A stretch of 64,000 nucleotides of DNA from Sulfolobus islandicus Y.N.15.51 (lineage in GTDB: Archaea; Thermoproteota; Thermoprotei_A; Sulfolobales; Sulfolobaceae). Of this stretch, positions 24,746 to 42,580 are shown in pieces. The notes under the pieces are model-generated. The model was not told where the DNA came from. It saw only the letters and a list, made by a program, of their open reading frames with translations, and did not search any database. A program made the translations under genes and the position numbers. The DNA lies in NCBI RefSeq assembly GCF_000022485.1, contig NC_012623.1, positions 186,001 to 250,000 of the forward strand, written 5' to 3'. The first letter of the stretch is position 1. Every line of letters begins with the position of its first letter.

Positions 24746-25964
24746 GGGCGTTCAGTAATAAATATTTCGGTTGAACTTCAAGCATAGTGTCAACTAAGAT
24801 TGCCACGTGAATCCTTTCAATTCACGTGGCGATTTTGGGTCACTTGGGCTCATAAGGCTTATTATTATACCAAACGCTCCACACAACCTTAGCCAACTTT
24901 CTCGCCAAGGCAGTGTATAACTTCCTACCGTGAAGCTTATCCTTGTGATACTCGTAAAACCTCAATAAGGTCGGGTTCTTTGAACAGTTCATCTGCGCAA
25001 GAAAGTAGAAAAGGCTGTGCAAATACTTGTTACCCCTCCTTGAGATTCCCTTACTTACCACCGCCTTACCGCTCCTCTCCACTACCGGATCTAGACCGCA
25101 ATAAGCTACGAAAGACTCAGGCTTAGGGAAGCGCCTAATATCACCTACAACGCCAATGATTATCCCTGCAGCAAGCTTCCCAACTCCCGGAATCGTCAGT
25201 AGGACGTGGTCTTCCGGTACTTGGCTCTCTATCATCTCCTTGACCTCTTTTAACTTCTCTTGCGTCTCAAAGAGGGCCTTAGCCAGTATTTTGACTTCTT
25301 CAAGTACTATTGGCGTGTATTCAAGTTGGTAGAGTACTTCTTGTGCGAAGTCTCCGCTTGCTAGTCTTTCCAATCTCTCCTTGTTTATCTTGTCGTTGTC
25401 GCTTACTAGGAATAGTGCTCTCTTTAGTCTGTTCTTTTGTTTTACTTCCATGTCCTTTAAGAACAGGTATAGAGTTACGAGTTCTCTAAGGACGTTATAC
25501 TCGTACTCCTTTGCCTTGTCGACCATGTTTTCTAATTTTTCTGCGTCGTAAAAATCTGTTTTCTTTTCCCTGAAGTCCTTTTCCCTTGATAGCACGTTTG
25601 GGCTTACTTGTAGTACTCTTACCCCTCTCTCCTTGAAGTATTGGGAAGGCTTTATTGAGTATACTCCGGTGGGCTCTAGGACTATCGTGCAAGGCTTCAT
25701 ATCGAGGATTTTCTCATAGCCTTTTAGGTTGTTCTCGTATTTTCCTCCCCTGCTCGTGATTAAATTATCTTTTGACACGTCTATTCCTAGGACCCCTACC
25801 TCCTTGTCACACCTATATGGGTGGATTTTCCCACAATGTTCAGTCCGACAGTAGGGGTCGGTCACGCCGGAAACCGAAGACTTAGCTTCAGAAATACTAC
25901 CGACCATACTCCCAACCCTAGGAGTATTACTCTTTACTCTCTAGAGCTAATAAAACCTATATAG
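24746..25964 (-). mobile_element. IS110-family element (second type) in cbsB
   Basis: The limits come from comparison with an internally deleted relative at 43370-43849. Both start GGGCGTTCAGTAATAAA and both end near CCTATATAG. The span is about 1.22 kb. It contains one transposase on the minus strand and a conserved segment at 25790-25960 that is likely a leader RNA rather than coding. Confidence 0.75.
24840..25907 (-). CDS. IS110-family DEDD transposase, second type
   Basis: The frame is 355 residues, but the true protein probably begins about 36 codons in, just before 'GVLGIDVSKDNL', the first DEDD Asp. The preceding part is conserved as nucleotides with the mini-element at 43700-43849 and contains GAAGC...TCTTCGG-type pairing, so it is more likely leader RNA. 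Other motifs are 'IVLEPTGVYSIK', 'REKKTDFYDAEKL', 'LLTIPGVGKLAAGIIIGVVG' and '[16 protein letters not shown]'. The frame is intact, so the copy may be functional. Confidence 0.85.
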   Translation of the reverse strand: MVGSISEAKSSVSGVTDPYCRTEHCGKIHPYRCDKEVGVLGIDVSKDNLITSRGGKYENNLKGYEKILDMKPCTIVLEPTGVYSIKPSQYFKERGVRVLQVSPNVLSREKDFREKKTDFYDAEKLENMVDKAKEYEYNVLRELVTLYLFLKDMEVKQKNRLKRALFLVSDNDKINKERLERLASGDFAQEVLYQLEYTPIVLEEVKILAKALFETQEKLKEVKEMIESQVPEDHVLLTIPGVGKLAAGIIIGVVGDIRRFPKPESFVAYCGLDPVVERSGKAVVSKGISRRGNKYLHSLFYFLAQMNCSKNPTLLRFYEYHKDKLHGRKLYTALARKLAKVVWSVWYNNKPYEPK

Positions 25965-25995
25965 GGTTAAGGGAGCGGAAAGCCTCGCCCCTTCT
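25965..25995. mobile_element. IS605-type right end, left piece (continues at 27220)
   Basis: The bases ending GCCCCTTCT at 25995 and those starting TTCTAGGGCAGAGAGG at 27220 join, after removing one TTCT, into GCCCCTTCTAGGGC. This is the hairpin seen in the right ends of the IS605-type elements at 32360-32396 and 36915-36950. An ISC1225-like element split it at the hairpin loop. The second piece runs to about 27243 (GAAGTCAG). Confidence 0.6.
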
Positions 25996-27219
25996 CGGTA
26001 GACCCAAAATCATATTAGAAAAAATATTTCTGATAGGATAATATCGAATTTATAAAAGATAAAGAAATTTATAAGAGTATAAAGAATTCAATTGAAGAAA
26101 GGGTTTAAGGTGAGGGAGATTGAGTATTACCACGTGAGTTAGTGAGATGGTAACACCCGGTCTCCCTCACCAAAATAACATTCAACAAATAGGATATAAA
26201 TTACTTTCCATGCTGAACTTCAAGGGAAAGAAAGGGGAAGAGGTGGCGAGAACCCTCATCTCAGCGTGTTTATGGAACGATTCGGTGGAAAGCAAGTCGA
26301 GGGCTTATGGCGTGTCCCCACAGACCGTGAGGAATTACGTGGAGGAGCAAGGGGTGGAAGTTATTGAGAAACTCTTGGAAAGCGCCAGGAAGATATCCTT
26401 GAAGGTACTGAAGGGAGTCAAGGAGATAGACGTCTCAATAGACTGGACAACCAAGACGTGGTACGGGAGACCGGTGGGAGGGCTCGGGAGTTCGGAGGAG
26501 GGAAACTCTTGGAACTACGCAACTGCGACGACAAAGTTTAATGGGAAAGTGCTCCTACTGGCCTTCATCACTCAAGTCAAGGGGATGACTAAGGAAGAGA
26601 TCGTGAAGGCCCTCGTGGAGCAAGTCGTCGCGATGGGGTTCAAGATAAGGTTGATAACTCTTGACGCTGGTTTCTATACTGTTGATGTGCTCAACTTCAT
26701 TTCACAGTTTAAGTATATAGTTGCTGTGCCTGTTGGGGATGTTAAGGTTTATGAGGAGTTTGACGGGGATTACACAACTAATAGTAAGAGGCATAGGAGG
26801 GATGAGCAGGTCAAGTTCAGGCTTCTCGTGTATAGCAAGGAAAAAGTGAGGAGAAAGAAGAAGAGTCTTGTTTATTTTGCTAGGGCTACTAACCTAGACC
26901 TATCCAAGAGGGAAGTGTTGGATTTGTACAATAAGGTAAGAGGTCCCATAGAGACCTCTTACCGGAACATCAAGGCTTTTCTTCCATTTACTAGTTCTAC
27001 TAAGTTCGTCTTCCGCACGTTGATCTTCGTGCTGGCCGTGGCCTTCTACTCCCTGTACACCGTGTTCAAGGGGGAGGTGAGGAGGGAGCAGTTCAGGATA
27101 CTCCTAATACTCTTGTTTTCTGATGATTTATTCTATCTAAAAGATTTTCTATTTAAATCAATAGAACCGCTTATTAATAATATAGATTTATTTTCAAGGA
27201 GGTGATTTTGGGTCTACCG
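25996..27219 (+). mobile_element. ISC1225-like insertion sequence, complete
   Basis: The terminal inverted repeats CGGTAGACCCAAAATCA (25996-26012) and their complement (27203-27219) are perfect over 17 bp. The length is 1224 bp, close to the 1225 bp in the name ISC1225. The flanking TTCT on both sides (25992-25995 and 27220-27223) is the target duplication. A leader hairpin with arms GGTGAGGGAGA and TCTCCCTCACC lies at about 26112-26171. Confidence 0.85.
26147..27205 (+). CDS. transposase of the ISC1225-like element (IS4/ISH3-like DDE type)
   Basis: This 352-residue DDE transposase is the only complete one of four copies in the window. 'EIDVSIDWTTKTWYG' gives the first Asp, 'RLITLDAGFYTVDVLNFI' the second, and 'RGPIETSYRNIKAFLPF' the Glu with the Y-x2-R-type (Y-R-x-I-K) motif of the IS4 superfamily. 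The ATG at 26147 lies inside the leader hairpin; the Met at 'MLNFKGKKGEE' is an alternative start. The last helices are hydrophobic. The family assignment between IS4 and ISH3 is from memory. Confidence 0.8.
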   Translation: MVTPGLPHQNNIQQIGYKLLSMLNFKGKKGEEVARTLISACLWNDSVESKSRAYGVSPQTVRNYVEEQGVEVIEKLLESARKISLKVLKGVKEIDVSIDWTTKTWYGRPVGGLGSSEEGNSWNYATATTKFNGKVLLLAFITQVKGMTKEEIVKALVEQVVAMGFKIRLITLDAGFYTVDVLNFISQFKYIVAVPVGDVKVYEEFDGDYTTNSKRHRRDEQVKFRLLVYSKEKVRRKKKSLVYFARATNLDLSKREVLDLYNKVRGPIETSYRNIKAFLPFTSSTKFVFRTLIFVLAVAFYSLYTVFKGEVRREQFRILLILLFSDDLFYLKDFLFKSIEPLINNIDLFSRR

Positions 27220-27238
27220 TTCTAGGGCAGAGAGGAAG

Positions 27239-27625
27239 TCAGTTTCGCTTTAGATATCTGATTTTTGAGGGGTCTTTTATTAAGAGTCTATAATAGATAT
27301 CAATGAAAGTTGCAGTCCAGTCAAAACTTTCTGACCCTATATATTTTTTCTTAATCTTTTTCGCTTTTACAAATTTTTTCTCAACTAACAATATCTCTGT
27401 TGTACGGTTGTACTTATCTTTAGCGTGAATTTCATACACCCCTTTTTTCAGACTGAACGTGCACGGCTGCCAATTTACGCCGTTTAACGAATACTCGACA
27501 TATATTGACACATATTCCTCACCAGGTATAATATGTGCGGTGTTCTGCCCTATGAATTTCTGTCTATAAATCACGCCCTCCTTCGGCTCCCATATACCCA
27601 CCAGTTTCTTTAGGATCCTTAGCAT
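27239..27625 (-). CDS. unrecognised 128-aa protein, probably from the integrated virus remnant
   Basis: This 128-residue basic protein ('YIVEYSLNGVNWQ'-like beta-rich centre: 'EYVSIYVEYSLNGVNWQPCT') has no family I recognise. Its upstream flank is directly continuous with the integrase-bearing segment once the IS5-type element is removed, because a 9-bp duplication (ATTAGAAAC) marks that insertion. It therefore belongs to the same segment as the SSV-type integrase and the 58-aa ORF. All three are on the minus strand. A fusellovirus accessory protein is likely. Confidence 0.5.
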   Translation of the reverse strand: MLRILKKLVGIWEPKEGVIYRQKFIGQNTAHIIPGEEYVSIYVEYSLNGVNWQPCTFSLKKGVYEIHAKDKYNRTTEILLVEKKFVKAKKIKKKYIGSESFDWTATFIDIYYRLLIKDPSKIRYLKRN

Positions 27626-27950
27626 ATCATGTTTATTAGAAACTGCTTTGTTGATCTCTTCAATTTATTTCATAAGCATGATATGATACACTGAGAATTT
27701 TTCAGTAATTAATATTTATTTCAACGTTATTCGCAAGCTCACACCCTAATACCCGGAGCTCTACCAACTAAAGAATTAGCCAAGTGGACCATCCATGCAT
27801 AAGCCCAGAACTTGAGCTTAGCCTCAACCACTTGTCCTAAAAAACTCCTACGGGGCAATCCACGCAAAACAAGAGAACGAATAAAACCAAGTATTACAAG
27901 AGAAAAGGAAATAAACAAGTAAGGAGAAAAACAACATAAGCTCATAGAAA

Positions 27951-28140
27951 ACATGGGGATAAAACCCCATCTACAAGGCTAGCTGTGAAGCCCCTAGAAC
28001 GATCTAACAAGAGGGGATAAAAACCCCCGAGTAGGAGGTTGTAACAAAATACTCTAGGGGCTGAAACACTTAACACTATGCAAAGAAAACAAGGTATTAT
28101 GAGAACAAAAAATATCTCGAGAAACGCGTAATACACAAGC
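27951..28140 (+). ncRNA. putative IS110 bridge (seek) RNA leader
   Basis: This non-coding leader stands directly upstream of the IS110 transposase. It shares an 18-nt hairpin (ATGGGG-ATAAAA-CCCCAT), AGGCTNGCT, GATCTAACA and GAGTAGGAG with the leader at 61891-62087, although the two transposases are well diverged. A long-range stem AGCCCCTAG (27989-27997) with CTAGGGGCT (28054-28062) encloses an inner hairpin GGGG/CCCC. The other copy keeps the pairing with different bases. This is the arrangement expected of a structured guide RNA. Confidence 0.65.
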
Positions 28141-29301
28141 ATGGAATTAAAAGTTACAAACAAGGCCTTCGCAATTGATATTTCACAAAGCAAACTAACA
28201 GCAGCAAAGGGAGAACTAGTAGTAGAACAAGAAAAATCAGCAGTATACGTCAAGGAGGTAAAGGAATTCAACCACGACAACGAGGGAATAGAGGAACTAA
28301 TTAAATTCCTAGGAGAATATAAGGAAGGAATAATAGAGGCAACTGGAATATATTACTTCTACCTACACGAAAAACTAACGGAAAAAGGATACAAGGTAAC
28401 AGTAATAAACCCACTACACCTAACAGAAATACTAGGGAAAAAGACAGACAAACTCGACGCACAAAGGTTACTAGTAGCACACATGACCGGAGTAATCAAG
28501 GGATCATACATACCAACAGGAGAAATAATGGAGCTAAGAGAACTAACGAGATATAGGGAAAGCTTAGTAGAGAAGACAACACAAGTAAAGAACGAGATAA
28601 GGAAAATATTAGAATTCGCGGGATATAAAATACAACCATTCGACAAGAAGGGAAGAAAACTACTTGAAAAGCTAGTAAAGGGGGAGGGACTAAGCAAGGA
28701 AGAGAAGGAGGAACTAAAAGAAAAACTAGGGAGAAACTTAAACGACGCGGAAAAACTAGCGTTAAAACAATTAGTTGAACTGTTAAAAAACTTGGAGAAA
28801 ATGATTAAGGAGGTTGAGGATATGATAATTTCCAAGATTCCAAAACCAGTAATTGAGTTGAGTAAGATCCCCGGAATTGGTTTGATTAGTGCTGCAACTA
28901 TTTACGCTGAGTTCGGTGATGTTTCCCGTTTTTCCAGTTCTAAGGCTGCTAGGGCTTATGCAAGCTTTGCACCCAAAACTAAGCAGAGTGGTGATAGCGA
29001 GTCTCACTCCGGTATGATTAGGGGTAATAAGTATTTGCGTAGAGCTCTCTACTTGGTTGCCAAGGTTGCTAGGGGTCTTGAGCCTTTTAAAGGGTATTAT
29101 GAGAGGCTTATTGCTAGGGGGAAGAGTGTTACTCAAGCTACTTGTGCTCTTGCCGGAAAGCTTGCAAGCATTTGTTATCATGTTATAAAGGACGGTGTTT
29201 ACAAGGGAGTTGTCAAGAAGAGTTTTAGGATTCCTAGGGGTAAGGAAGTTAATGTCAAGGACTTCGACGTGGGAGACGCGCTAGACTCGTTATCCCCATA
29301 G
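28141..29301 (+). CDS. IS110-family DEDD transposase, third type
   Basis: This 386-residue recombinase is intact. DEDD motifs are 'AFAIDISQSKLTAAKG', 'GIIEATGIYYFYLH' and 'GKKTDKLDAQRLLVAHMTG'. The C-terminal domain is 'LSKIPGIGLISAATIYAEFG' and 'ASFAPKTKQSGDSESHSG'. A charged helical insertion of about 80 residues separates the two. The flanks are the two halves of an ISC1058-like transposase gene. The related copy at 62088-63239 has a similar right-flank sequence (TTAGAGGC...GCATGT), so the two share target preference or element end. Confidence 0.9.
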   Translation: MELKVTNKAFAIDISQSKLTAAKGELVVEQEKSAVYVKEVKEFNHDNEGIEELIKFLGEYKEGIIEATGIYYFYLHEKLTEKGYKVTVINPLHLTEILGKKTDKLDAQRLLVAHMTGVIKGSYIPTGEIMELRELTRYRESLVEKTTQVKNEIRKILEFAGYKIQPFDKKGRKLLEKLVKGEGLSKEEKEELKEKLGRNLNDAEKLALKQLVELLKNLEKMIKEVEDMIISKIPKPVIELSKIPGIGLISAATIYAEFGDVSRFSSSKAARAYASFAPKTKQSGDSESHSGMIRGNKYLRRALYLVAKVARGLEPFKGYYERLIARGKSVTQATCALAGKLASICYHVIKDGVYKGVVKKSFRIPRGKEVNVKDFDVGDALDSLSP

Positions 29302-30074
29302 GTTTGTTAGAGGCGTCAGCATGTAGTGCCTTGTAGCCCTAACAGATTCCCCAAAAGTACGCTTCACAGCATAGAACAAGGACTCAATCCTCCACCTAAC
29401 ACCATAACCCTTCTCCTCCCTCCAACGATTATAACCCAACTTCTTGAACTCCCTTACAGCCTAGCAGGATGGCCACGCCTAGTAGAAGCGTTCTTCCTAG
29501 GTGGGACAACAACCTCAACCCCAGTCTTGTAAATTGACATCATAAGCCTTATCCTCATAAAACCTTCTTTCCCTTATCTTGTAAATCCTTAACCGTCTTA
29601 ACTGCAGTCTGAACCTCGTTGCTGGTTACTTCAGCGTTTATTACGTTGAATTGGTCCTTATCCATTACTATTTCGATCTTGAGGAATTTTGAGTCCTTGG
29701 TTTTACCCCATTTTGCAATTGTCCTCCTTTGTTTGTGCTTATTCCCGTTGCGTCTGCTTCTAGTTGGTCATTTGCCTCTGGGAATTTTATGTTCATGTTT
29801 CTTACTCTTTCCCATATTGTTGAGTAGTCTAGGCTTGATGATTTTCAGTCTTTCTAGTGCTCTCAATACTCCTTCTATATAAGGTAGGAAGATGTGGAGG
29901 AATGCTAGGAATTCGTTGAACTCCTTTGGTGCCTTGTAGGTTTTCTTGGCATGCCTATTCTCCTCTGCTAGTTAACCAGTGTTGGAAGACGTAGAAGGGG
30001 AACATTAGGGTATATCTCGTTATAACGTTCTCGTCGTACTTGTGCCAATCCCTCTTGTACTTACTCTTTCCCAT
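29302..30074 (-). pseudogene. ISC1058-like IS5-family transposase, 5' part, decayed
   Basis: Reading on the minus strand from ATG at 30074 gives 'MGKSKYKRDWHKYDENVITR' and then, through several frame changes and stops, 'RWRIESLFYAVKRTFGESVR'. The latter is the Y/R-x-E block of IS5 transposases. The 3' part ('LRGLPRRSFLGQVVEAKLKF') is at 27739-27900, beyond the IS110 insertion. It is non-functional. Confidence 0.7.
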
Positions 30075-30163
30075 GGGTAATACTCGGTATAATTATTTAT
30101 AAATTTTTGTATAATTCTGAAGTAGCCCACAAAGCAATTAGAAACAAAATATTTAAATCATGT

Positions 30164-30340
30164 CTACTTTAAAAGCGCTTCTTTCACATTCCCGTACTGG
30201 TCTACGAACACTAAGTGTTTGCCGTTGACGCTAAGAATTTTTTTCGCGTTCACTGTACCGTTTATCGTGTTGAGTTTGATCGTTTCGTTATTATCTCCAA
30301 TCATTTCGATATCGTTTTGTTTGCGCGAAAAGAACATCAT
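30164..30340 (-). CDS. 58-aa ORF of the virus remnant
   Basis: This short frame begins ATGATG at 30340 ('MMFFSRKQNDIEMIGDNNET') and ends with the peptide 'VFVDQYGNVKEALLK'. It lies 18 bp beyond the 9-bp duplication of the IS5 element and downstream of the integrase on the same strand. The composition is coherent (polar, beta-rich), but I do not recognise a family. Being attached to an SSV-type integrase it is probably viral. Confidence 0.45.
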   Translation of the reverse strand: MMFFSRKQNDIEMIGDNNETIKLNTINGTVNAKKILSVNGKHLVFVDQYGNVKEALLK

Positions 30341-30384
30341 AATTAAAATAAGGTGTTGAGGAAAAAATGATTTTTTGTTAGAAT

Positions 30385-30430
30385 GGGGATTCTAATAAAC
30401 GCGGTGGCAGTTAATCCTACTCGAATCCCC
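30385..30430. other. inverted repeat downstream of the integrase
   Basis: GGGGATTC (30385-30392) and GAATCCCC (30423-30430) can form an 8-bp stem around a 30-nt loop, just after the integrase stop. It could be a transcript-end structure or part of the viral attachment region. It does not fold as a tRNA. Confidence 0.4.
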
Positions 30431-30455
30431 TATAGCACGCGTGGTTTCCGACAAT

Positions 30456-31235
30456 TTAAAAATTGTTACTTAGCCATTCGGCGTATTTTCTGTAATGCTC
30501 TTTTGCTATTCCGAAAAGCGAAACGTAATGTTGCGTTAGTACGCGGGTAGGCTTACGCCCCTGAATAAAATCGATAATGTCGAGAGGAATCCCGAGTTCT
30601 GCCATTTTTGTGGCCACAAATTTCCTAAAGTATTTAGGCGGTACTAAGCCCAATTTCTTTGTGTATTTATCTATGTAAGACTTAGAGACCTTAACCCTCC
30701 GCAATTGGGTCAAGTGAAACGCATAGAATGAACCTTTCTGACCCCTGACCCAATTAATTTCGTATGCACATATACCGTTTTCACACCTATCACGTGTACT
30801 ATCGTAATCATTAAGTATCTTTAATGCCTCACTTTCCCTTATCCCGCTCTCTAAGAGTAAACTATATAGTAAATATAAATTAGGATATTGTTTAGCCCTC
30901 TCTAATGTTTGCCTAATTTCGTCAAGTGAAGGGATGCGTAAGTCTGCTTTAGTCTTCTTAATTTTTAGAGTTTCGGGCGGGTCTCTGTTTAGCACGAATT
31001 TGTAGAAATTACGCCATGCCTTAATGCAGTTATTTGAGTCCTTCTTATTTTGCTTAATGCAATTAATATATTTCCTTATTGTATCCTTAGAGATATTTTT
31101 ATCTTTTAACGCTATTTCGAATTTCATTATATTATTTGCTGTTATTTCAGAGTTGTTAACAAACGTTTCTACATAGCCGTTTGTGATAACTTCTTTCAAT
31201 TCATCATAATTAGCATTGGGGGTCTTAGGGGTGTC
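30456..31235 (-). pseudogene. SSV-type (fusellovirus) tyrosine integrase, C-terminal part
   Basis: This site-specific recombinase of spindle-shaped viruses is truncated at its amino end. 'LLYSLLLESGIRESEALKIL' carries the first catalytic Arg, 'FRKFVATKMAELGIPLDIID' the box II region, and 'IQGRKPTRVLTQHYVSLFGI' the Arg and the nucleophilic Tyr. The end ('KEHYRKYAEWLSNNF') is nearly that of SSV1 integrase as I recall it. In-frame codons before the TTG at 31199 ('GDTPKTPN') also match, then a stop follows. About 85 amino-terminal residues are missing, consistent with the intC half left by SSV-type integration or with loss at the IS605 junction. Confidence 0.8.
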
Positions 31236-31269
31236 CCCCCTAATGCGGGCCTCTCTGAACCCCTCCTAG

Positions 31270-32332
31270 TCCTCGTTAATAACTACGTAAAGGCAATACG
31301 TTTCACCCTATTCTGGTTGAAGGAAAATGTCCCGAACCCAGACGAGAAGGGAGTGTTAGGAAAAGTCCACGAGGAGTTATACAAGAGGTTAAGGGAGGAG
31401 TACAATCTACCTTCAAAGGTTGCCGAGGATTGTTATAGGGATGCCCTCTCAGTGTACAAGGGATGGTATAATAATCCTAGAAGAGGGCGTTTTCCTAGAG
31501 TATATAGGCCAACTGTTTGGCTAACTCCTAAAGCTAGCTATAATGTGGATTTTGAAGCAATGACTGTTAGGATTGCAAGTGTTGGTGATCTTCAAATTCT
31601 GGGTTATCCTAGGAACTTAGGGGAGTATGCAAACTGGAGGATGAAGGAGGCTAGGTTAGTAGTTAGGGGTGATAAGGCTTTTCTAAAAGTGGTTTTTGAG
31701 AAACCGTTGGAGAAGGTCGAAGTAAAGGAAAGTGTTGCTGTTGATATTAATATGAGTGAGATTGTTGTAGGAAAGGATGATATTAGCTACGTTAGGATTC
31801 CAACTCGTTTGAACGAGGTTCATCACTGGAAGTCTTTAGCTGAAAGCCTACAAAGGAAGTATCCAAGGATATGGAAAGAGAATAAGAGGATCTTGTATAG
31901 GATTCATTCCTTCCACCTAAAGGCTAGGAGGATTTCGCTAGGAAGGTTGGGAAGTGGGTTGTTGAAATTGCTAGGGATTTTGGTGCCAATGTTGTTAAGT
32001 TGGAGAGTCTCAAGAACCTTGTCAAGAATGTAGATAGACTGCCAAGAGAGTTTAGGGATAAACTCTACTTGATGCAGTATCGTAGGATTCAATATTGGAT
32101 TGTTTGGCAGGCTAAGAAACACGGTATTCTAGTTCAATATGTTAACCCTAGTTATTCTTCTGTTTCATGTCCTAAGTGTGGTAAAAGGATGGAAGAAAGG
32201 GGATATCGTTGGTTTAGGTGTTCATGCGGTTATGAGAATGATCGTGATGTTATTGCAGTTATGAATTTAAACGGGAGGGGGTCTCTGGCCCTCTCGTCTG
32301 CCTACCAGATGAGAGATGTAAACCCGAATTGA
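31270..32332 (+). pseudogene. tnpB: IS605/IS607-type TnpB (RNA-guided nuclease), frameshifted and 5'-truncated
   Basis: The protein reads '[20 protein letters not shown]' onward in one frame to about 31935. It continues in another frame as '[20 protein letters not shown]' to the end, so a single indel lies near 31935-31945. RuvC motifs are '[15 protein letters not shown]' (Asp), '[11 protein letters not shown]' (Glu) and '[14 protein letters not shown]' (Asp). A zinc ribbon '[20 protein letters not shown]' lies between. The amino end is cut near the integrase fragment, and no TnpA accompanies it. Confidence 0.8.
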
Positions 32333-32396: not shown

Positions 32397-33123
32397 TTAT
32401 AAGTCATTAATACCCTTGACAGTTATATTGCTAGTCTCACCCTTTATTACATTAATACCTAACTACGAGAACACTTTCTTGCTATATTCTCTCGAAATGG
32501 CCATCTTATATTAGGATTAGCAAGCACTATTGAAGGCTTAATTAAATCCTCGTTATTATCAATTCTCTTAATTCCTACGTTAATCTTAGTAAATCTTGGA
32601 ATATTTGCATCAATACTTCTTAGTATATTTCATGACGCATTATTTATAAGCTACCTCAGAGTTTATTTAATTTCTATTGCGGGGGTATTTGGCATTTGTA
32701 ATATTATGGGGCAAAATTAAATCCTTTAGAAATTACATAGCTATTTCAGTTGGCCTCCTTTCAATTATACCATTTTTATTTTTTGAAAATATGATAAGCC
32801 AAAATAGGTACTTGGAAATTTTAATGAATATGATATTGCCCGCAACTCTGGGAATAAACTTGTATAATCCTTATCATATTACTCTCTTAGTGATCGCATT
32901 AGGTTTAAGTATAATGGGTATTGTTACATCCTTAATAAAGGGTAATGCTGGTGCAAGTGTTGGATATTTTTTGATAATAACTACTGTTTTTCTTGGAATT
33001 GATGGTTTCTCGTTATTAATATATATGCTAACTCCAATAATTGGTTTCTTAGTAATTACTTCTGGTGAAATTGAAAGTAAAAAGCGTTTAATTGATATCA
33101 TAAGTCCAACGAGAAATGGATAA
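32397..33123 (+). pseudogene. cbsB: cytochrome b558/566 subunit B, 3' part
   Basis: Hydrophobic coding sequence resumes right after the IS605 right end ('LIPLTVILLVSPFITLIPNY'). It then shifts frame near 32497 ('HLILGLASTIEGLIKSSLLS') and shifts back near 32677 ('[20 protein letters not shown]' to the stop at 33123). The two shifts compensate, so they could be real decay or sequencing errors. The mobile-element island upstream breaks the gene regardless. The end is followed by soxL after 36 bp. Confidence 0.75.
33098..33111 (+). promoter_or_regulatory. 14-base motif upstream of soxL (copy 2 of 3)
   Basis: TCATAAGTCCAACG lies within the last codons of cbsB and ends 48 bp before the soxL start. 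A TATA-like ATAAAAGCTATAT follows. It is identical to the copies before cbsA and soxN. Confidence 0.6.
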
Positions 33124-33159
33124 AAGCTATATTTTACTGTTTATTTTTTGTGATTCAAA

Positions 33160-34134
33160 ATGATTAGATTTAAGTCAGATAAAGAAGATAAGCCTATCTT
33201 AGACTACTCTAACCTAACATTTATTAGAAAATTAACGAGCAAAATGAGAGATCCTAAGACAAAATTTGATACAAAAGAATTTGTAAATAAGGGTGAAGAC
33301 TATTTATTCAACTATACAAATAAGAACGTTGGAAGTGTTGACGAAAAAAGACGAAAATTTCTCAAATCATTAATCTTTGGGATAGCGGCTGCTGCGGTAG
33401 TTGGTGTTATACCGGGACTTAAAGTATTGGTTCCACCAACAGTTACAGTTACTACTGGTTTCCCTAAGTCGTTATTGGTAGACTCTTCTGGAAATCCAAT
33501 TAAAGCATCGCAAATTCCAGTTAATAGTCCATTTATAGTTATATTTGAGTATCCAATGACAGGTGAACCAAACTTTTTAATAAATCTAGGTGATTCCTCA
33601 GGGAAACCAGTAGAGATTCCTTCTACAACTGTAGAAGTTCCTCAAAATGGTAAAACCTATACTTTTCCTGGGGGTGTCGGACCTAATAAGTCAATAGTAG
33701 CATATTCTGCTATTTGCCAACACTTAGGATGTACTCCGCCTTATATTCACTTTTTCCCTCCACAATATGTAGGTCCTTCCCAGTTAACTGCATCTGAACC
33801 AGATCAGCTAACGGCGGCAGCATTATTAGCAGCTAAACAAGCGAAGGTCCCTGCATTAATACATTGTGATTGTCACGGTTCTACTTATGACCCTTATCAT
33901 GGTGCCTCAGTACTAACGGGACCAACGGTTAGACCATTACCAGCAGTGATATTAGAATGGGATTCATCAACTGATTACTTATATGCCATAGGTGCAGTTG
34001 GTGTAGCAACTTATCCGAACGGAAGTAACGGGGTACCTACAGATAATCCTACTGACGATTTAAGCTCAAGTTTCGGTAGCTCTGTTAGTGATAAGACAAC
34101 AGTGCAAGAAACTGAGAATCCTTTTTCATCATAA
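33160..34134 (+). CDS. soxL: Rieske iron-sulfur protein of the bc1-like complex
   Basis: This 324-residue Rieske protein is anchored by one N-terminal helix and preceded by a twin-arginine-like 'EKRRKFLKSLIFGIAAAAVV'. The 2Fe-2S ligands are in 'YSAICQHLGCTPPY' (C-x-H-x2-C) and 'LIHCDCHGSTYDPYHGA' (C-x-C-H). About 45 residues between the two boxes form an insertion typical of archaeal SoxL. It takes electrons from quinol at the SoxN site and passes them outward, probably to CbsA. The gene is intact and begins with its own motif-bearing promoter, so it can be expressed despite the broken cbsB. Confidence 0.9.
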   Translation: MIRFKSDKEDKPILDYSNLTFIRKLTSKMRDPKTKFDTKEFVNKGEDYLFNYTNKNVGSVDEKRRKFLKSLIFGIAAAAVVGVIPGLKVLVPPTVTVTTGFPKSLLVDSSGNPIKASQIPVNSPFIVIFEYPMTGEPNFLINLGDSSGKPVEIPSTTVEVPQNGKTYTFPGGVGPNKSIVAYSAICQHLGCTPPYIHFFPPQYVGPSQLTASEPDQLTAAALLAAKQAKVPALIHCDCHGSTYDPYHGASVLTGPTVRPLPAVILEWDSSTDYLYAIGAVGVATYPNGSNGVPTDNPTDDLSSSFGSSVSDKTTVQETENPFSS

Positions 34135-34142
34135 GTCCAACG
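34129..34142 (+). promoter_or_regulatory. 14-base motif upstream of soxN (copy 3 of 3)
   Basis: TCATAAGTCCAACG overlaps the soxL stop codon and ends 37 bp before the soxN start. TTTAATAC follows immediately, as it nearly does at cbsA. Confidence 0.6.
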
Positions 34143-34179
34143 TTTAATACTTTTTACCTCTTTTCCTTAATTTATTCTT

Positions 34180-35790
34180 ATGAGATCTAAATTATCAGAT
34201 TGGTTTAAGGAGAGACTAGGATTAGATGACTTACCCTTCTTCAAAACACCAGATTATATGTACAAGGTAGACTATTGGCTAGGTGCATTAGTTGCGTCTG
34301 CGTTCATTTATACCGTAATAACTGGGCTTATCCTTTTGTTATATTATAATGCCCAAGCTGGATACAATTCAACGGAGTTCGTTATAAATAGCGTACCATA
34401 CGGTTCAGTTGTGCTTTACAGTCATTTATATGGGGCATATGCCATGATAATCCTAGCCTATGTTCACATGTTTAGGAATTATTTTGCTGGAGCGTATAAG
34501 AAGCCTAGAGAATTGTTATGGATAATTGGAGTTATAATGCTAATACTTACTCTGGGCACTGCGTTTTTAGGATATAGTTTAATAGGTGATGCATTGGCAA
34601 CTAGTGCTGTGGATGTAGGAGAGGGTATAATTAGTAGTATACCGGGCCTTTCCATCTTCATTCCGTTACTATTTGGGAATTACGATGCTGGAGATTACGG
34701 TAGGGTATTAGCATGGCACATAATATTTACCGCGTTAATAGGCTTGTTATTCGTCTTCCACTTCTTCATGGCCGAACATTATGGCATGATGCCCTCCAGG
34801 AAAGTTAAGGATAAAGTACCAGCAGTATATACAAAAGAAGAGTGGCAGAAATTCAATCCGTGGTGGCCTAGGAATTTCGTTTACATGATGTCCTTAATAT
34901 TCTTGAGCTGGGGATTCATTCTCATAATACCAAATGCCTTAGCATACATTAATGGATTACCGCAACAATTGAATCCATTCTTAAATCCGAAACCAGCTCC
35001 CCCACCAAACAGTCCAGCTGCAGCGCATATAACAACTTATCCACCATGGTTCTTCCTGTTCTTATATAAGATAGCGGACTTTACAAGTGATGTAGTAATA
35101 TTCTTATTTATTGGTGTAATTATTCCACTAATATATCTTATCATAGTGCCATTCTTGGATAGGATAGAATACTTACACCCGTTAAAGAGGAAAGTGTTTG
35201 TAGGGATAGGTATTCTAATGTTAACTTACTTAATACAAACAACCATATGGGGTGACCTAACACCTGGCGTAGAGATTCCAGTTAGTCAACAAGTTTTAGT
35301 ATATTTACCACCGGCAATAATAGTAGCTTTAGGGCTTGCTGCGATCAAACCAAAAACGGATAACAAAGGGAATATAAAAGGGACAATAAGTCCCATAACA
35401 GCTCTGGCATTTGTTTTAGTTTCATCTCTGTTTGTTATAGCTGGAATCGAGCTACTAGCTAATCCTACAATTTTAACGGTTGGAGTATTTATCTCTCTTG
35501 CAGGAATATTTATACTAACTACTAAAAAGATCGCACCTATAGCATTAAAGGCGGAACAAAGAAGCGAGAATATGACAATAAGTGAAGAAAGAGTACCAGA
35601 GTGGAAAAAGAAACTGGCTGAAGGCTTAGTAGCAGTGCTATTCATTTATGCAATAATATTAGCAGCACAAATATGGACAATACCAGCTACTGGATACTTC
35701 TCTAATTTATTCGGTATAGATTTAGGACTAATCTTTCTAATGCTAGGTGAAGGCATTTCCCTATATCATTATGTGGTATATAGGAAATAA
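34180..35790 (+). CDS. soxN: cytochrome b of the bc1-like complex
   Basis: This 536-residue di-haem cytochrome b with many membrane helices is the quinol-oxidising core of the SoxL-SoxN complex. Haem-ligand helices are 'LYSHLYGAYAMIILAYVHMF' and 'LAWHIIFTALIGLLFVFHFF'. The quinol-site PEWY-type motif appears as 'TYPPWFFLFLYKIADF', with a P-P-W-F variant. The C-terminal third has extra helices. It follows soxL by 45 bp and precedes odsN by 12 bp. The gene is intact. Confidence 0.9.
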   Translation: MRSKLSDWFKERLGLDDLPFFKTPDYMYKVDYWLGALVASAFIYTVITGLILLLYYNAQAGYNSTEFVINSVPYGSVVLYSHLYGAYAMIILAYVHMFRNYFAGAYKKPRELLWIIGVIMLILTLGTAFLGYSLIGDALATSAVDVGEGIISSIPGLSIFIPLLFGNYDAGDYGRVLAWHIIFTALIGLLFVFHFFMAEHYGMMPSRKVKDKVPAVYTKEEWQKFNPWWPRNFVYMMSLIFLSWGFILIIPNALAYINGLPQQLNPFLNPKPAPPPNSPAAAHITTYPPWFFLFLYKIADFTSDVVIFLFIGVIIPLIYLIIVPFLDRIEYLHPLKRKVFVGIGILMLTYLIQTTIWGDLTPGVEIPVSQQVLVYLPPAIIVALGLAAIKPKTDNKGNIKGTISPITALAFVLVSSLFVIAGIELLANPTILTVGVFISLAGIFILTTKKIAPIALKAEQRSENMTISEERVPEWKKKLAEGLVAVLFIYAIILAAQIWTIPATGYFSNLFGIDLGLIFLMLGEGISLYHYVVYRK

Positions 35791-36213: not shown

Positions 36214-36492
36214 ATGGCAGAAATAGACAAAATATTAAAAAATCTTAGTATGGGAGAGTTAAAGTTTTGGGTTGACGGCGTATATTGTAATAATTGTGTT
36301 AATAGAATTCATAGAGCGTTAAAGACCATAAGCGGTGTAGAGGATGTCGAAGTTAAACCAAATTTCAAGGAACTTAGGGCTCTTGTAATACTAAAATATA
36401 GGGGGGAAGTGAGTAAAAAAGACATTGAGGAAGTCCTCTCAGAAGCTTCAGATGAGACTCCTTATCATGAGTATAAGCCAATTTGGGAGTAG
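36214..36492 (+). CDS. heavy-metal-associated (HMA-like) domain protein
   Basis: This 92-residue single-domain protein resembles copper chaperones. 'FWVDGVYCNNCVNRIHRALK' has the C-x2-C metal site after the first strand, then 'ISGVEDVEVKPNFKELRALV'. The Met of the usual MxCxxC is replaced by Val-Tyr, so the metal may differ. TTTATTAATATAA lies about 30 bp before the start, so the message is probably leaderless and independent of odsN. Confidence 0.75.
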   Translation: MAEIDKILKNLSMGELKFWVDGVYCNNCVNRIHRALKTISGVEDVEVKPNFKELRALVILKYRGEVSKKDIEEVLSEASDETPYHEYKPIWE

Positions 36493-36836: not shown

Positions 36837-36950
36837 TCAAGTGGGGGCTTTCTGACTACTCACAAAATGAGAGATGTACTCTCGAATCAATGGTGGGATT
36901 AATGAACTACTGACTGAGGAATCTCGCCTCTGTGAGGGCAGAGAAGGAAC
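36837..36950 (+). mobile_element. IS605-type 3' remnant
   Basis: The peptide and nucleotide sequence here ('[20 protein letters not shown]'; then a hairpin GCCTCTGTGAGGGC and GAGAAGGAAC) correspond to the tnpB stop region and right end at 32270-32396. Only the end is present. It cuts the DUF929 gene on its right. Confidence 0.55.
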
Positions 36951-37721
36951 TAGATAAAGTGGACTACTATTACTGCTATCTTGCATAAAGTGAGAGCATA
37001 CATTATAAGGCTTATATCCATCCACTTTACAAATCATTTCGGTTATTAAATTAGCCTCAGAGTAAATTTCTTTATAAACTAAGCTGTTGGGGTTTTGAAG
37101 TTGCTCTAGAACATATGTCCAGTTGTGTCCAGATATTAATCCTGGATCTATGCTTGTTCCTACTTTATAGTAGTATTCTGTTATTATGAAAGGAATAGAT
37201 AGATTTCCATACTCCTCCCACATATTATATATTTGAGTCGGTACTTTATCTAAGGGTTGATAATTTCTGTCTTGGTATTCTATGCCATAAAATGATATGT
37301 AGGTACTACTATATGTAGAATTTGCAAAAGTAAAGGTAGGAGTATTGGGATATACATCGGTGGAGCTTGAAAGCATATACTCTAAATTAGAGAAATTCCC
37401 AAATCTGAGAAGAGCTATAATTAGAGCCCATCTCTCAGCTGCACAATATGGGCACCATTCTGCACCAACATATATTATAGCTGGTTTACCATTTGATGAG
37501 AAGTTAAGTGGTAATACTTTAAAGTAATTGGTAGGTAAGGCACTTATATTATAACCTTGATTACTTATTTCCAGTAACTGATTATATACATCATTCGATA
37601 TTGATTGACCTATTAAAGGTGAGCTAGTACTCCTTAGCTGTAATAATACACTACCCGCTATCACTATAATAGCTACTATTACTATCGTGAAGTAGATGTA
37701 TCTTAAGGTTTGTCTTCTCAT
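36951..37721 (-). pseudogene. DUF929 thioredoxin-like membrane protein, C-terminally truncated
   Basis: This is a membrane-anchored, outward-facing protein with a thioredoxin-like fold. It has an N-terminal helix ('[20 protein letters not shown]') and then '[20 protein letters not shown]' with the C-x2-C redox site, the DUF929 signature. Native sequence runs to about '[12 protein letters not shown]'. The reading frame then continues to 36837 through IS605 DNA, adding a false tail of about 35 residues. The protein may still be made because the redox domain is complete. Confidence 0.7.
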
Positions 37722-37821
37722 AGAATATTAAAATTAAAAATTGAATATAAGGTTTGCGTTAGAAACTTTCAAACACATAGTTAAATTTCTGTAATTTAGT
37801 ATACTATTAGTGATTCAAGAA

Positions 37822-38904
37822 ATGAAAAAAGAACCAAGAGCAGTATCTAATGCGGTTTTTGCAGGAGTAGTAATAGTATTGGTAATAATAGCAGCGATAG
37901 GCTTCGTACTATATGCTACAAAACCATCAACTATTTCAACCACATCGCCCCCAACAACCTCCACAACCACCTTAACAGTTACTCAAACGTCTACACAAAC
38001 TACTACAGCGACAGCAACAATGACAGCCACAGTTACTCAGACTGCTACACAAACTACTACAACAACACAGGTTGTAACTAGGCCAGTTACAGTAAATGCA
38101 AGTGGATCGTTTCTCGATGGAAAGGTAATAACATTCTTATATACCAGCCAATTTATGTGCACACCTAATGCTACTGTATTCTTCCCTAATGCTGTAAATC
38201 AAAGTAAGGTAGCGATGGGTTGTGAAGTAGGTGCAGGAAATATATCAGCTTTTCCTAAGGGAGCAGAACCAGTATTTGTCCTAGTACCAGCGTTTGCTGG
38301 ATTATCCATTTTTGGAGTTCAAAGTCTAGGTGCAACTCCTCAAGGATTTCCAACATTCCATTATAATGGACAAAACTATACAATAATAACCCAGTGCGGT
38401 GCAGCACTTACTCAAACTGCATGTCCAGATCATATGACTCTAATATACTCTCCAGCGTTTACTGTAGTTGAGCAATACTTAGGTATAAAGAATGGAGTTT
38501 TCGGACTACCAGAAGGAGTTTTACCTACACCTGCACATGATCACATAGTAACATTTGCCACTAATACGTCAATACCATGGTATATTGTTGTAGTATTAGT
38601 ATTTAATCCTAATATCTTTCCTAATCCAATCACTGGACAATGCCAACAAATAGTACCTTCTAACCAAACCAATCCAACTGGATTATGCTTGAATAGTATT
38701 AACGCATTAGAACAGGCAATGGGAACTTATGATAGTGCAGTAGCAACTGCTAATGCAAACAATCCCATATGGCAAGCCCTAGGTAAACCCGAACTAGATG
38801 TAGTGGTACCTGGAATAAGTTCACCATCTCAGCTATTAACAGCCACTAACTCCAATATGTTACTGTTCTTCAGTGATCCAGCAGTTTATCCATATCCAAT
38901 TTAA
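37822..38904 (+). CDS. membrane-anchored secreted protein with Thr-rich stalk
   Basis: This protein of about 360 residues has an N-terminal helix ('AVFAGVVIVLVIIAAIGFVL'), a long Thr/Ser/Gln stalk (about residues 35-90) and an exterior domain with six cysteines ('FMCTPNAT', 'MGCEVGAG', 'TQCGAALTQTACPDHM' and others) and 'PTPAHDHIVTF'. I do not recognise the family. The downstream gene begins 19 bp after its stop and encodes a membrane Fe-S protein, so the pair may form an electron-transfer or metal-handling system. ATG 37822 is chosen over GTG 37810 because a TATA-like element lies about 26 bp before it. Confidence 0.7.
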   Translation: MKKEPRAVSNAVFAGVVIVLVIIAAIGFVLYATKPSTISTTSPPTTSTTTLTVTQTSTQTTTATATMTATVTQTATQTTTTTQVVTRPVTVNASGSFLDGKVITFLYTSQFMCTPNATVFFPNAVNQSKVAMGCEVGAGNISAFPKGAEPVFVLVPAFAGLSIFGVQSLGATPQGFPTFHYNGQNYTIITQCGAALTQTACPDHMTLIYSPAFTVVEQYLGIKNGVFGLPEGVLPTPAHDHIVTFATNTSIPWYIVVVLVFNPNIFPNPITGQCQQIVPSNQTNPTGLCLNSINALEQAMGTYDSAVATANANNPIWQALGKPELDVVVPGISSPSQLLTATNSNMLLFFSDPAVYPYPI

Positions 38905-38923
38905 TGTTAACTGGTGAGTAAAA

Positions 38924-40342
38924 GTGAATATAAAGGTGACTATTTTTAATTATATTTTAGATAGGTCTTATATTTTTCTTCTATTCATTCTTTTTATATC
39001 TTTAATTTTTCCTATAGTTTCAGCATTCATTAGTCTCATATTTGTGGGTTTACTCTTTCAAGGAATTTATTTAAGAAGACAGAGTTCAGCAAATAGCCCT
39101 TATATAGTATTAGAGATACTTTCTATGCTATTATTAATTTATACTGTTCAGTTTTTTGTGTATTTATTAAAAATAACGGATATTGTTCCTTTATCCTACT
39201 CCGTAGTAATCTTTCTCTCCTTATATAGGTTAAAGAGAGGAATTAAAAAGAAGACTAATTATTTACAAAATTCAAAAATAGCTTTCGCGTTATTATTATT
39301 AGCTTTTTTATTAAGTTGGTTTATTAGTGGGTTTTTAGATTTAAGCCAAGGCAACTTTTCTGTCTTTGGTCAATTTGGCTATTTCTCCTATCCCTTTTTA
39401 GCTTTCATGAATTTCATATCAGCTTTTGCATCTGTCACTGCTAGCCCCTGGTTCATGATAGATATGGGAATATGGCTTGGAGTAATTGGCATATTTAGAA
39501 TAATAGAATATAATAAGATAGAGAATAAAATAAGATATTTGCTAATGATGTTTGCTTATGCGTTCTATAGTATTTACCTCCCAACATTCTCACCCATATC
39601 GAGTGAGGTGAAATATATTCCTTATATGTGGTTTAATGGATTAGGAACTTATGGACCAGTTAAATCATCTTACCTGCTAGATGGTATTATAGGAACTTTT
39701 ACAGTTACAGCAATCCTCTCTTTCATGTTTGGCTCAAGACAAATATGCTCTGTAACGTGCACAGCTCCTTATATGTTGCAAGGGACATTCCTTAATTCTA
39801 TGAAGAAGTATAACAGATCATCAAAAGTTGGCAGGAACACATTAACATCGAGAATAAGCTCTTGGTATAAATGGATAATAACTATAACATGGATCTCATT
39901 GCTAATCTTAGCAATTTTATCATATCTAAAATTTTCAATTTTAGGAAATGATCCAACAATGCTTTATACTAGCTTATATTTTAACGTAATCTGGTACTTC
40001 CAATTCATGTTAATGCCATTTTTAGGAAATTACGCTTGTGTAAATAATGGGATATGCGCATGGGGCTCTTTCAATCAATTTTTCGGTTATTTAGGGCTTT
40101 TCAAGCTTAAAGTTAGAGATCCGAAAAAATGCTTAACTTGTAAAACAGTAGATTGTGCATATGCCTGCCCAGTAGGATTAACAGATATGAGAGCCTCGTT
40201 CATAAAGAAAGGAGAATTTAAGTCATTTAAATGTATAGGTGTTGGAGATTGCGTAGAAGTATGCCCTTATAATAACATAACATTTTATGATGCTAGATCT
40301 TGGATAAAAGAAAAGTTACATTCAATAAACTTTAACTTATGA
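38924..40342 (+). CDS. membrane protein with C-terminal 4Fe-4S motifs (NapH/NosR-like)
   Basis: This 472-residue protein has about ten hydrophobic helices, then a cytoplasmic tail with 'CLTCKTVDCAYACPVGLTD' and 'CIGVGDCVEVCPYNN' (4Fe-4S sites). Between the helices is 'SRQICSVTCTAPYMLQG', the C-x3-C type motif of NapH/NosR membrane electron carriers. It probably moves electrons between the quinone pool or ferredoxin and an exterior acceptor such as the upstream secreted protein. The start is GTG at 38924, preceded by GGTGAG. Confidence 0.75.
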   Translation: MNIKVTIFNYILDRSYIFLLFILFISLIFPIVSAFISLIFVGLLFQGIYLRRQSSANSPYIVLEILSMLLLIYTVQFFVYLLKITDIVPLSYSVVIFLSLYRLKRGIKKKTNYLQNSKIAFALLLLAFLLSWFISGFLDLSQGNFSVFGQFGYFSYPFLAFMNFISAFASVTASPWFMIDMGIWLGVIGIFRIIEYNKIENKIRYLLMMFAYAFYSIYLPTFSPISSEVKYIPYMWFNGLGTYGPVKSSYLLDGIIGTFTVTAILSFMFGSRQICSVTCTAPYMLQGTFLNSMKKYNRSSKVGRNTLTSRISSWYKWIITITWISLLILAILSYLKFSILGNDPTMLYTSLYFNVIWYFQFMLMPFLGNYACVNNGICAWGSFNQFFGYLGLFKLKVRDPKKCLTCKTVDCAYACPVGLTDMRASFIKKGEFKSFKCIGVGDCVEVCPYNNITFYDARSWIKEKLHSINFNL

Positions 40343-41921: not shown

Positions 41922-42131
41922 TCACACTTTCTTTATACTTTGTTTTATCTTGTTTTTCATATCATCTGAGATTTCTTTCATGTGATGCACATTTTTAGCA
42001 TGAATCTTTAAAATTTCTAGTATTTCCTCTTCTGAACTCGCTCCTTTTACTTCAAATCCACAATCCATACCAACACTTCCACAACTAAACGCAAACTTCT
42101 TCTTCTTCCCTATACCAAATACCATTTTCAA
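41922..42131 (-). CDS. single-domain DUF1059 protein
   Basis: This 69-residue protein has the DUF1059 pattern: 'FSCGSVGMDCGFEVKGASSE' with two cysteines and 'ILKIHAKNVHHMKEISDDM' with the His residues. It is a likely small metal-binding protein of unknown role. It lies just upstream of the Lrp-like regulator on the same strand and is divergent from a two-domain paralogue. Confidence 0.8.
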   Translation of the reverse strand: MKMVFGIGKKKKFAFSCGSVGMDCGFEVKGASSEEEILEILKIHAKNVHHMKEISDDMKNKIKQSIKKV

Positions 42132-42220: not shown

Positions 42221-42580
42221 ATGCCAAAATACACATTCAAATGTGAGGACGTAGGAATGGATTGTGGATTTGAAGTAAAAAATGCAGGAAGCGAGGATGA
42301 GCTATTAGAAATGCTTAAGATACATGCGAAATCGAGTCACGGAGTTACTTCCATTCCTCCAGATCTATTAAATAAAATAAAACAAAACATAAAAAAGGTC
42401 GGGAAGTACTATTTCAGCTGTGCTAGCGTAGGAATGAACTGTGGATTTGAAATTATGGGAGCTCAATCTGAACAAGAATTACTGGAAGAGTTAATGGTAC
42501 ACGCTAAGATGTCACATGGGATGTCATCTATTCCACAAGATACATTAAATAAGATAAAACAAAACATAAAGGAAATGTAA
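42221..42580 (+). CDS. tandem DUF1059 protein
   Basis: This 119-residue protein consists of two DUF1059 repeats, each with the C...G-M-x-C-G-F-E and I/V-H-A-K...H pattern ('CEDVGMDCGFEVKNAGSEDE' and 'CASVGMNCGFEIMGAQSEQE'). It is divergent from a single-domain copy 90 bp away, so the pair arose by duplication. The function is unknown; four Cys and four conserved His suggest metal binding. Confidence 0.8.
   Translation: MPKYTFKCEDVGMDCGFEVKNAGSEDELLEMLKIHAKSSHGVTSIPPDLLNKIKQNIKKVGKYYFSCASVGMNCGFEIMGAQSEQELLEELMVHAKMSHGMSSIPQDTLNKIKQNIKEM

Follow-up and report, generated by a model that had tools for sequence, protein, structure and literature searches.

How proteins that face hot acid attain their correct disulfides and metal centres, and keep them, is poorly understood, and a locus of Sulfolobus islandicus Y.N.15.51 raises the question of which neighbouring genes serve a cysteine-rich protein on the cell exterior. 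The window, i.e. the whole stretch of DNA that was analysed, comprises 64,000 nucleotides (C1:186001-250000) of the 2.85 Mb source genome (G000). Within it, a gene for an exterior protein is followed by a gene for a membrane Fe-S protein; the original prediction, made from the letters alone, held that the two could pass electrons across the membrane to an exterior acceptor or maintain a metal or thiol centre outside, and that a DUF929 thioredoxin-like protein upstream adds to a redox theme. The features of the locus, in window positions, are as follows.

36837 to 37721, minus strand: gene of the DUF929 thioredoxin-like protein (PF06053), predicted to be exported, with CPYC and a second conserved Cys pair.
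37822 to 38904, plus strand: gene of the exterior protein, 360 aa, from ORF calls and homologues; no Pfam or NCBIfam family above cut-off.
37852 to 37920, plus strand: hydrophobic anchor after RAVSN, compatible with a putative class III (pilin-type) signal.
37927 to 38097, plus strand: Thr-rich stalk, read from the sequence.
38119 to 38901, plus strand: conserved domain with six invariant Cys and conserved His, from the 53-row alignment A2 and an AlphaFold model.
38158, 38221, 38395, 38422, 38641 and 38686, plus strand: first bases of the Cys codons of this domain.
38431, 38536 and 38542, plus strand: its conserved His codons.
38924 to 40342, plus strand: gene of the membrane Fe-S protein, 472 aa, with Fer4 domains and a NapH model match below cut-off; a neighbour of the exterior gene in 23 of 23 Sulfolobaceae.
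39746 to 40057, plus strand: membrane-proximal pairs C275/C279 and C372/C378, invariant in 13 of 13 aligned sequences.
40130 to 40264, plus strand: ferredoxin-type tail with C403-x2-C-x4-C-x3-CP and C437-x5-C-x3-CP, from the Fer4 match and the alignment.

The exterior protein consists of an N-terminal membrane anchor, a Thr-rich stalk that differs in length among its relatives, and a globular domain of 261 residues, which holds every one of its exactly six cysteines. The reading frame, ending at 38904 on the plus strand, could start from a GTG at 37810 or an ATG at 37822, and the ATG appears preferable because close homologues fit it (MKKE.RAVSN). The description of a Thr-stalked exterior protein with six cysteines is borne out by this reading frame and by the conservation of the domain, in which each of the six residues is kept throughout the 53 aligned homologues, which come from several phyla, an invariance that, judging from the alignment, is not a matter of chance. 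In one genome (G022; L171, 9358-11166) the domain occurs twice in tandem in a single reading frame of about 602 residues.

A structural role, in which a pilin-like or S-layer-associated surface protein merely needs a neighbouring folding machine for its disulfides, would suit the Thr-rich stalk, the presence of two exterior copies in G022, G032, G042, G066 and G090, and the class III-like N-terminus, a [KR][GA] pattern before the hydrophobic helix, seen in 17 of 24 Sulfolobaceae exterior frames. The same type of pattern, however, is found at just 12 of 43 exterior loci of a wider genome-contig set, and sequence conservation is above what would be expected of a purely structural protein: identity to the window domain is 40-60% in most cross-phylum pairs, and E118 is retained in 53 of 53 and H140 in 52 of 53 sequences. 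Such a role is accordingly considered quite unlikely. As a general rule for the exterior protein, a class III signal peptide of the kind carried by PibD substrates was not upheld (12 of 43 wider loci); in Sulfolobaceae (17 of 24 frames) it is a putative feature.

Two further histidines are conserved in the domain, namely H142 (47/53) and H105 (45/53; domain numbering in A2). The losses of H105 fall in Micrarchaeota-type rows and one Marsarchaeota-titled row that groups with them, the three-His site being incomplete in several Micrarchaeota, and H142 is replaced by Gln in one Thermoplasmata row (L087). The H105/H140/H142 site is compatible with a metal, and its conservation suggests that it probably binds one or forms an active site. 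C93 and C102 probably form one disulfide, since the Thermoplasmata relatives described below retain only these two cysteines, whereas the remaining pairs, 14-35 and 175-190 of the domain, are guesses from Cys spacing.

The exterior domain was unfamiliar when first described, and indeed no Pfam or NCBIfam family fits it. No relative appeared among PDB sequences either, the single weak match of the profile having E 1.2, and literature searches found no paper on the protein as far as the listings show. An AlphaFold2 model built on A2 (mean pLDDT 92.0, pTM 0.91), which replaced a discarded model on the shallow alignment A1 (pLDDT 35), gives the confident fold prediction that had been suggested as a check, but the fold has no PDB match: Foldseek reached E 1.2 at best, and none of the 144 best Foldseek chains, to which the VIA-align comparison was restricted, reached Z 2. 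A search of BFVD likewise gave no match (best E 1.6). As the comparison covered PDB and BFVD only, the lack of a match to this model does not prove a new fold. Haem or copper ligands had also been proposed as something to look for: the translated exterior protein contains no CxxCH haem motif, and no cupredoxin domain or fold of the sulfocyanin or rusticyanin kind matches it in Pfam, NCBIfam or PDB, while the three-His site keeps the possibility of a metal.

More remote relatives extend the family. Weak matches from Thermoplasmata turned out to comprise one or two domains, with two Cys arranged as C ... C-x-DHP plus the motif PGHDHL, and their set (A3) aligns with A2 in hhalign at 98.3% (E 1.8e-14). 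By way of one of them a protein of the Pseudonocardia plasmid pBCI1-2, WP_060577138.1, was reached, which was recovered by a second query (E 3e-6) and is matched by the A2 and A3 profiles with E 4e-8 and 3.9e-19; the best of 1000 shuffles scored 3.1 and 7.5 bits, respectively. In hhalign with A2 (96.6%) all six Cys, CTMHP and PSHSH are aligned, and the secreted Pseudonocardia protein thus retains the six Cys and three His. Plasmid searches with the window domain or one Thermoplasmata domain gave no match, no phages with the Pseudonocardia-type protein were found, and none of 55 pattern matches in viral contigs was confirmed. On the Pseudonocardia plasmid (L200:2335-6165), the gene is part of a set of overlapping genes, the others encoding a lipoprotein with weak cupredoxin similarity and two proteins without a name.

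The membrane gene begins 19 bp after the exterior gene, as the ORF coordinates confirm. Its product had been called NapH/NosR-like with two cytoplasmic 4Fe-4S motifs, and both descriptions hold in part. The NapH model (NF007013) matches with E 1.4e-9, but its 37.5 bits against a cut-off of 234, like the 33.5 bits of the NapH/MauN model (TIGR02163) against 213.05, lie below the family cut-offs and indicate only partial resemblance; a NosR-type exterior FMN-binding domain is absent among Pfam matches to E 1. The NapH/MauN feature of a dicluster ferredoxin tail downstream of the membrane spans is present according to hydropathy, and Fer4_10 matches this C-terminal tail with 36 bits (cut-off 25.5). 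The first cluster motif has four conserved cysteines (C403, C406, C411 and C415), the second only three (C437, C443 and C447), and their side of the membrane, together with that of C275, C279, C372 and C378, is presumably cytoplasmic because the loops are rich in Lys and Arg. These eleven residues are invariant in 13 of 13 aligned membrane proteins (A5, taken from 20 rows by omitting truncated, split and near-identical ones, with one row a long paralogue), and if the truncated and split ORFs are left in, the same Cys are kept in 18-19 of the 20 rows. A caveat to the presumed cytoplasmic placement is that, at the threshold used, hydropathy finds only one segment between the first Cys pair and the others for the window protein, compared with two for the long paralogue.

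Longer paralogues of the membrane protein, of about 620-660 aa, are common in Sulfolobaceae. Some 84 bp behind the one of this genome (L179:8240-11184) lies a gene that, by eye, looks thioredoxin-reductase-like; this was rejected as a general arrangement, as only G000 and G146 show it, whereas the remaining loci of long paralogues that were inspected (L038-L046, with flanks of at most about 1.5 kb, and L182 and L184, with longer flanks) do not.

Reduction of a metal by the membrane protein is, by analogy, a serious rival to disulfide chemistry, because the protein resembles in outline CcoG, which is membrane-bound, has two tetranuclear Fe-S clusters and acts as a cupric reductase (PMC7558416). 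In a copper-handling locus the three His would bind copper, the membrane protein would be a CcoG-like cupric reductase and the DUF929 protein would act in metal insertion of the Sco/TlpA type. This would fit the three His common to the window protein and its Pseudonocardia homologue, which ends in DHHAGMNHG and whose same-strand gene run includes the lipoprotein with a weak match to Cupredoxin_1 (E 0.033, 14.7 bits vs 27), as well as a heavy-metal-associated (HMA) gene at 36214-36492 of the window. The HMA gene, however, belongs to no cluster common to three or more regions, the exterior protein matches neither a cupredoxin nor a known copper protein, and its His site is incomplete in some Micrarchaeota; strongly acid surroundings are, moreover, generally known to disfavour exposed His ligands. 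On balance, copper handling appears unlikely.

The gene neighbourhood in related genomes provides the main evidence for a function in thiol chemistry. Within the order, the exterior domain was found in 21 of 147 genomes, i.e. in 20 of the 22 family genomes sampled, G059 being counted among them with an exterior remnant only, and in one chance match (L021 in G064, E 9.3e-4), the frame of which overlaps frames of an ATPase-like stretch (named by eye). Among the 31 Sulfolobaceae genomes searched, 24 have the exterior protein and seven gave no match; in 23 of the 24, with G059 as the exception, at least one exterior copy has the membrane gene and a DUF929 gene no further than about 5 kb away (locus L071 was assigned to G1101 on matching contig coordinates). 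Additional exterior rows at L177, L178 and L071, which a wrongly chosen query had produced, were left out. The family (f1) is Sulfolobaceae, as it includes the locus of Metallosphaera yellowstonensis. The proposed pairing is thus conserved in Sulfolobaceae, and an unlinking of the two genes in most relatives, which would have refuted it, is not observed there.

Five gene orders and one split form were observed. In the first, as in the window, DUF929 adjoins a co-directional exterior-membrane pair, and in the second the pair is divergent with DUF929 behind the exterior gene. The third order (G011, G146 and G1098) has DUF929 between the exterior and membrane genes, the fourth and fifth have the membrane gene in the middle, in one orientation in G066 and in the opposite one in G096 and G1101, and in the split form (G042 and G032) one of two exterior copies is found with the membrane gene and the other with DUF929. 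Since all 23 genomes keep the linkage across these arrangements, it survives rearrangement. In G136, G141 and G1097 exterior frames are broken or have lost the N-terminus; G146 has a truncated membrane gene and G125 a split one, each alongside a full-length exterior frame. G059 has no short membrane paralogue besides its exterior remnant, G114 has no exterior match and a 51-aa membrane-gene remnant beside a DUF929 stretch with two stops, and G084 has neither an exterior match nor a short membrane paralogue; these three look like module genes decaying together, which speaks for a module.

The redox theme proves stronger than first stated. The upstream gene is confirmed as DUF929 (172.9 bits for PF06053, gathering cut-off 24.6), and the C90, C93, C231 and C242 of its product are invariant in 14 of 14 aligned sequences (A4, 14 of 18 DUF929 loci). 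The seven best of 14 weak PDB matches of the DUF929 profile (E 0.0095-0.069) are of thioredoxin, DsbE or CcmG types or antigen MPT53, while the lower-ranked ones include unrelated chains. DUF929 proteins were detected in the experimentally determined secretome of Picrophilus torridus (PMC8345856). A VKOR gene (PF07884; 75.9, 67.3 and 63.4 bits vs 27.5 for three module neighbours in relatives) lies inside the module in 10 of the 23 genomes (G022, G072, G078, G102, G108, G119, G125, G131, G136 and G1097); in G022, G072, G102 and G108 it overlaps the membrane gene at the 3′ end, and in G078, G119 and G136 it follows DUF929. Eight more genomes have VKOR elsewhere, including the window's own genome (C1:2252286-2252669, outside the window), and five have no match (G066, G090, G096, G141 and G1101). 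VKOR is therefore above the Pfam cut-off in 18 of 23 genomes with the exterior protein versus 0 of 8 without it (Fisher 1.6e-4, relatedness ignored), where the eight include G059, G1099 with one VKOR match below cut-off, and G1095 and G1100, which are less than 90% complete. Since DUF929 is as constant as the pair (23/23) and VKOR occurs both in the locus and, by this comparison, genome-wide, the Sulfolobaceae locus is better described as a thiol-redox module than as a pair.

DUF929 itself is present in 31 of 31 Sulfolobaceae genomes, with or without the exterior gene and with one to seven matches each; in G042 and G032 the single match adjoins an exterior gene. In genus g6 (G078, G131, G141 and G119) a distant membrane-protein paralogue, at C1:1700867-1702281 in G078, stands tail to tail with a DUF929 gene in four of four sampled genomes, which again suggests that membrane proteins of this type are associated with DUF929.

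Outside Sulfolobaceae the picture is different. A genome-contig scan with A1 gave 44 exterior loci from Marsarchaeota, Thaumarchaeota/Nitrososphaeria, Thermoplasmata, Micrarchaeota, two Sulfolobaceae, three entries titled 'archaeon' and one 'bacterium', and the isolate names in the titles suggest mine drainage, acid sediments and hot springs as sources. The membrane gene is near the exterior gene at both Sulfolobaceae loci but at 0 of the 42 others (22 with at least 3 kb on both sides, 15 with about 8 kb), and no neighbour is widely shared there, the commonest cluster occurring at 7 of 44 loci. The exterior protein is thus far more widespread than the exterior-membrane pair. Genome searches with A2 found it in 14 of 245 genomes of the Micrarchaeum-genome phylum, 14 of 350 of the Nitrososphaeria class and 17 of 350 of the Thermoplasmata class, five of the last with weak partial matches only. 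A tree of the 53 domains broadly follows phyla, except for Marsarchaeota rows, two of which stand beside Sulfolobaceae, one in Nitrososphaeria and one in Micrarchaeota.

The partners nevertheless tend to co-occur with the exterior protein. DUF929 is present in 33 of 40 exterior-positive versus 8 of 39 exterior-negative genomes outside Sulfolobaceae (Fisher 2.9e-8, relatedness ignored; the 40 omit G722 and five genomes with weak partial matches) and absent from 7 of the 40. The positive set divides into the Micrarchaeum phylum (14/14), Thermoplasmata (10/11), Nitrososphaeria (8/14) and Marsarchaeota (1/1), versus 6/10, 2/15 and 0/14 for the first three in the negative set. Near-full-length homologues of the membrane protein (E < 1e-50), with frames 666-790 aa long, were found in 13 of 40 exterior-positive and 2 of 39 exterior-negative genomes, the 13 being from Thermoplasmata (10/11), Nitrososphaeria (2/14) and Marsarchaeota (1/1), with 0/14 in the Micrarchaeum phylum. 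This co-occurrence may reflect only lineage or habitat. In the L148 region of two Thermoplasmata genomes, G148 (contig C11) and G569 (C28), the exterior gene has three DUF929 genes no more than about 11 kb away, such clustering outside Sulfolobaceae being seen only in these two.

Of the original idea of electron transfer to an exterior acceptor or upkeep of an exterior centre, the conserved pairing and the redox theme stand; since the exterior gene is unpaired at all 42 outside loci and G146 and G125 keep its frame with a damaged membrane gene, it is not tenable to regard the exterior protein simply as the acceptor of the window membrane protein's electrons. The same observation bears on a respiratory role, in which the exterior protein would take or give electrons via the membrane Fe-S protein, with the window's cytochrome genes close by. 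Upstream lie a cytochrome b protein gene above the SoxC cut-off (34180-35790) and a Rieske-like ORF (33160-34134, named by eye), which in G042 and G032 has a homologue no more than 10 kb from the exterior gene. The Rieske-like ORF, however, is present in only 3 of 24 regions compared, the exterior protein shows no haem motif or cupredoxin match, and other phyla carry it without the membrane gene nearby, which makes a respiratory role very unlikely.

Other features of the window were noted as well. A block of about 7.5 kb with transposase-like, integrase-like and TnpB-like ORFs (24840-32332, named by eye) is flanked by a gene with an ethylbenzene-dehydrogenase-type domain (23108-24523), the product of which is presumably CbsA-like, and by the Rieske-like and SoxC-type genes (32677-35790), and apparently splits a cbs/sox cluster. 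Downstream of the module, a small protein with two DUF1059 domains is encoded at 42221-42580, with a similar ORF at 41922-42131 (by eye).

Taken together, linkage through rearrangement, VKOR in the locus and in the genomes, the CPYC of DUF929 and the six invariant Cys point to extracytoplasmic thiol chemistry that serves the exterior protein. The reading preferred here, with a probability of roughly 45%, is that this protein, which belongs to an unnamed family and has three disulfides and a His site, depends in Sulfolobaceae on DUF929, VKOR and the Fe-S membrane protein for its formation or upkeep. The exterior protein would be membrane-anchored, extracytoplasmic and stabilised by the three disulfides; DUF929 would be an exported thiol oxidoreductase acting on it, and VKOR would re-oxidise DUF929 and pass the electrons to quinone. 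The NapH/CcoG-like membrane protein would shuttle electrons between its Fe-S clusters and the membrane, with an output that most likely reduces misformed disulfides or bound metal outside. The client relation and the direction of electrons are, like the disulfides with their pairing and the metal, our reading of the gene linkage, conservation, domain assignments and predicted fold. Several observations argue against the module reading: no conserved Cys of the membrane protein is assigned to the outside, which leaves its route to an exterior thiol unexplained, no neighbour is widely shared outside Sulfolobaceae, 7 of 40 exterior-positive genomes there lack DUF929 and 5 of 23 within have no VKOR match, the membrane gene is truncated or split in two genomes, the His site is incomplete in several relatives, and DUF929 is present in all 31 Sulfolobaceae, with or without the exterior gene. 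A bolder proposal, of a new family with a new fold, would make the domain a three-disulfide extracytoplasmic metalloprotein with a C-x2-H ... P-x-H-x-H site, spread over several acid-habitat archaeal phyla and Actinobacteria and served in Sulfolobaceae by an undescribed kind of transmembrane Fe-S/thiol relay; as a whole it is doubtful. The preferred reading ties DUF929, of unknown function, VKOR and an Fe-S membrane protein to one testable exterior client, and Sulfolobus acidocaldarius is an organism with genetics.

The locus can be compared with several known systems. Sulfocyanin, rusticyanin and other cupredoxins are exterior proteins of an acid habitat; in contrast to them, the exterior protein has no cupredoxin match in Pfam or NCBIfam and no PDB fold match. 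With NapH/MauN and CcoG-type membrane ferredoxin proteins the window membrane protein shares several membrane spans and a ferredoxin-type tail, and with NapH also the membrane-proximal Cys pairs, whereas it lies far below the NapH/MauN cut-offs and has a three-Cys second cluster motif. NosR carries an exterior FMN-binding domain, while the window protein has no exterior Ig or FMN domain among its Pfam matches. Export folding by VKOR/DsbB and DsbA-type proteins is similar in that a CPYC thioredoxin-like protein and VKOR share one locus in 10 of 23 genomes, although the module adds an Fe-S membrane protein and a dedicated exterior protein, and VKOR is outside the window here and without a match in 5 of 23 genomes. 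Finally, MauD, MauE and MauN are encoded by Mau maturation genes that accompany the disulfide-rich MauA, and while the window exterior protein matches no named family, the two loci are analogous in placing a thioredoxin-like protein, a membrane partner and a NapH-like protein beside a disulfide-rich exported protein.
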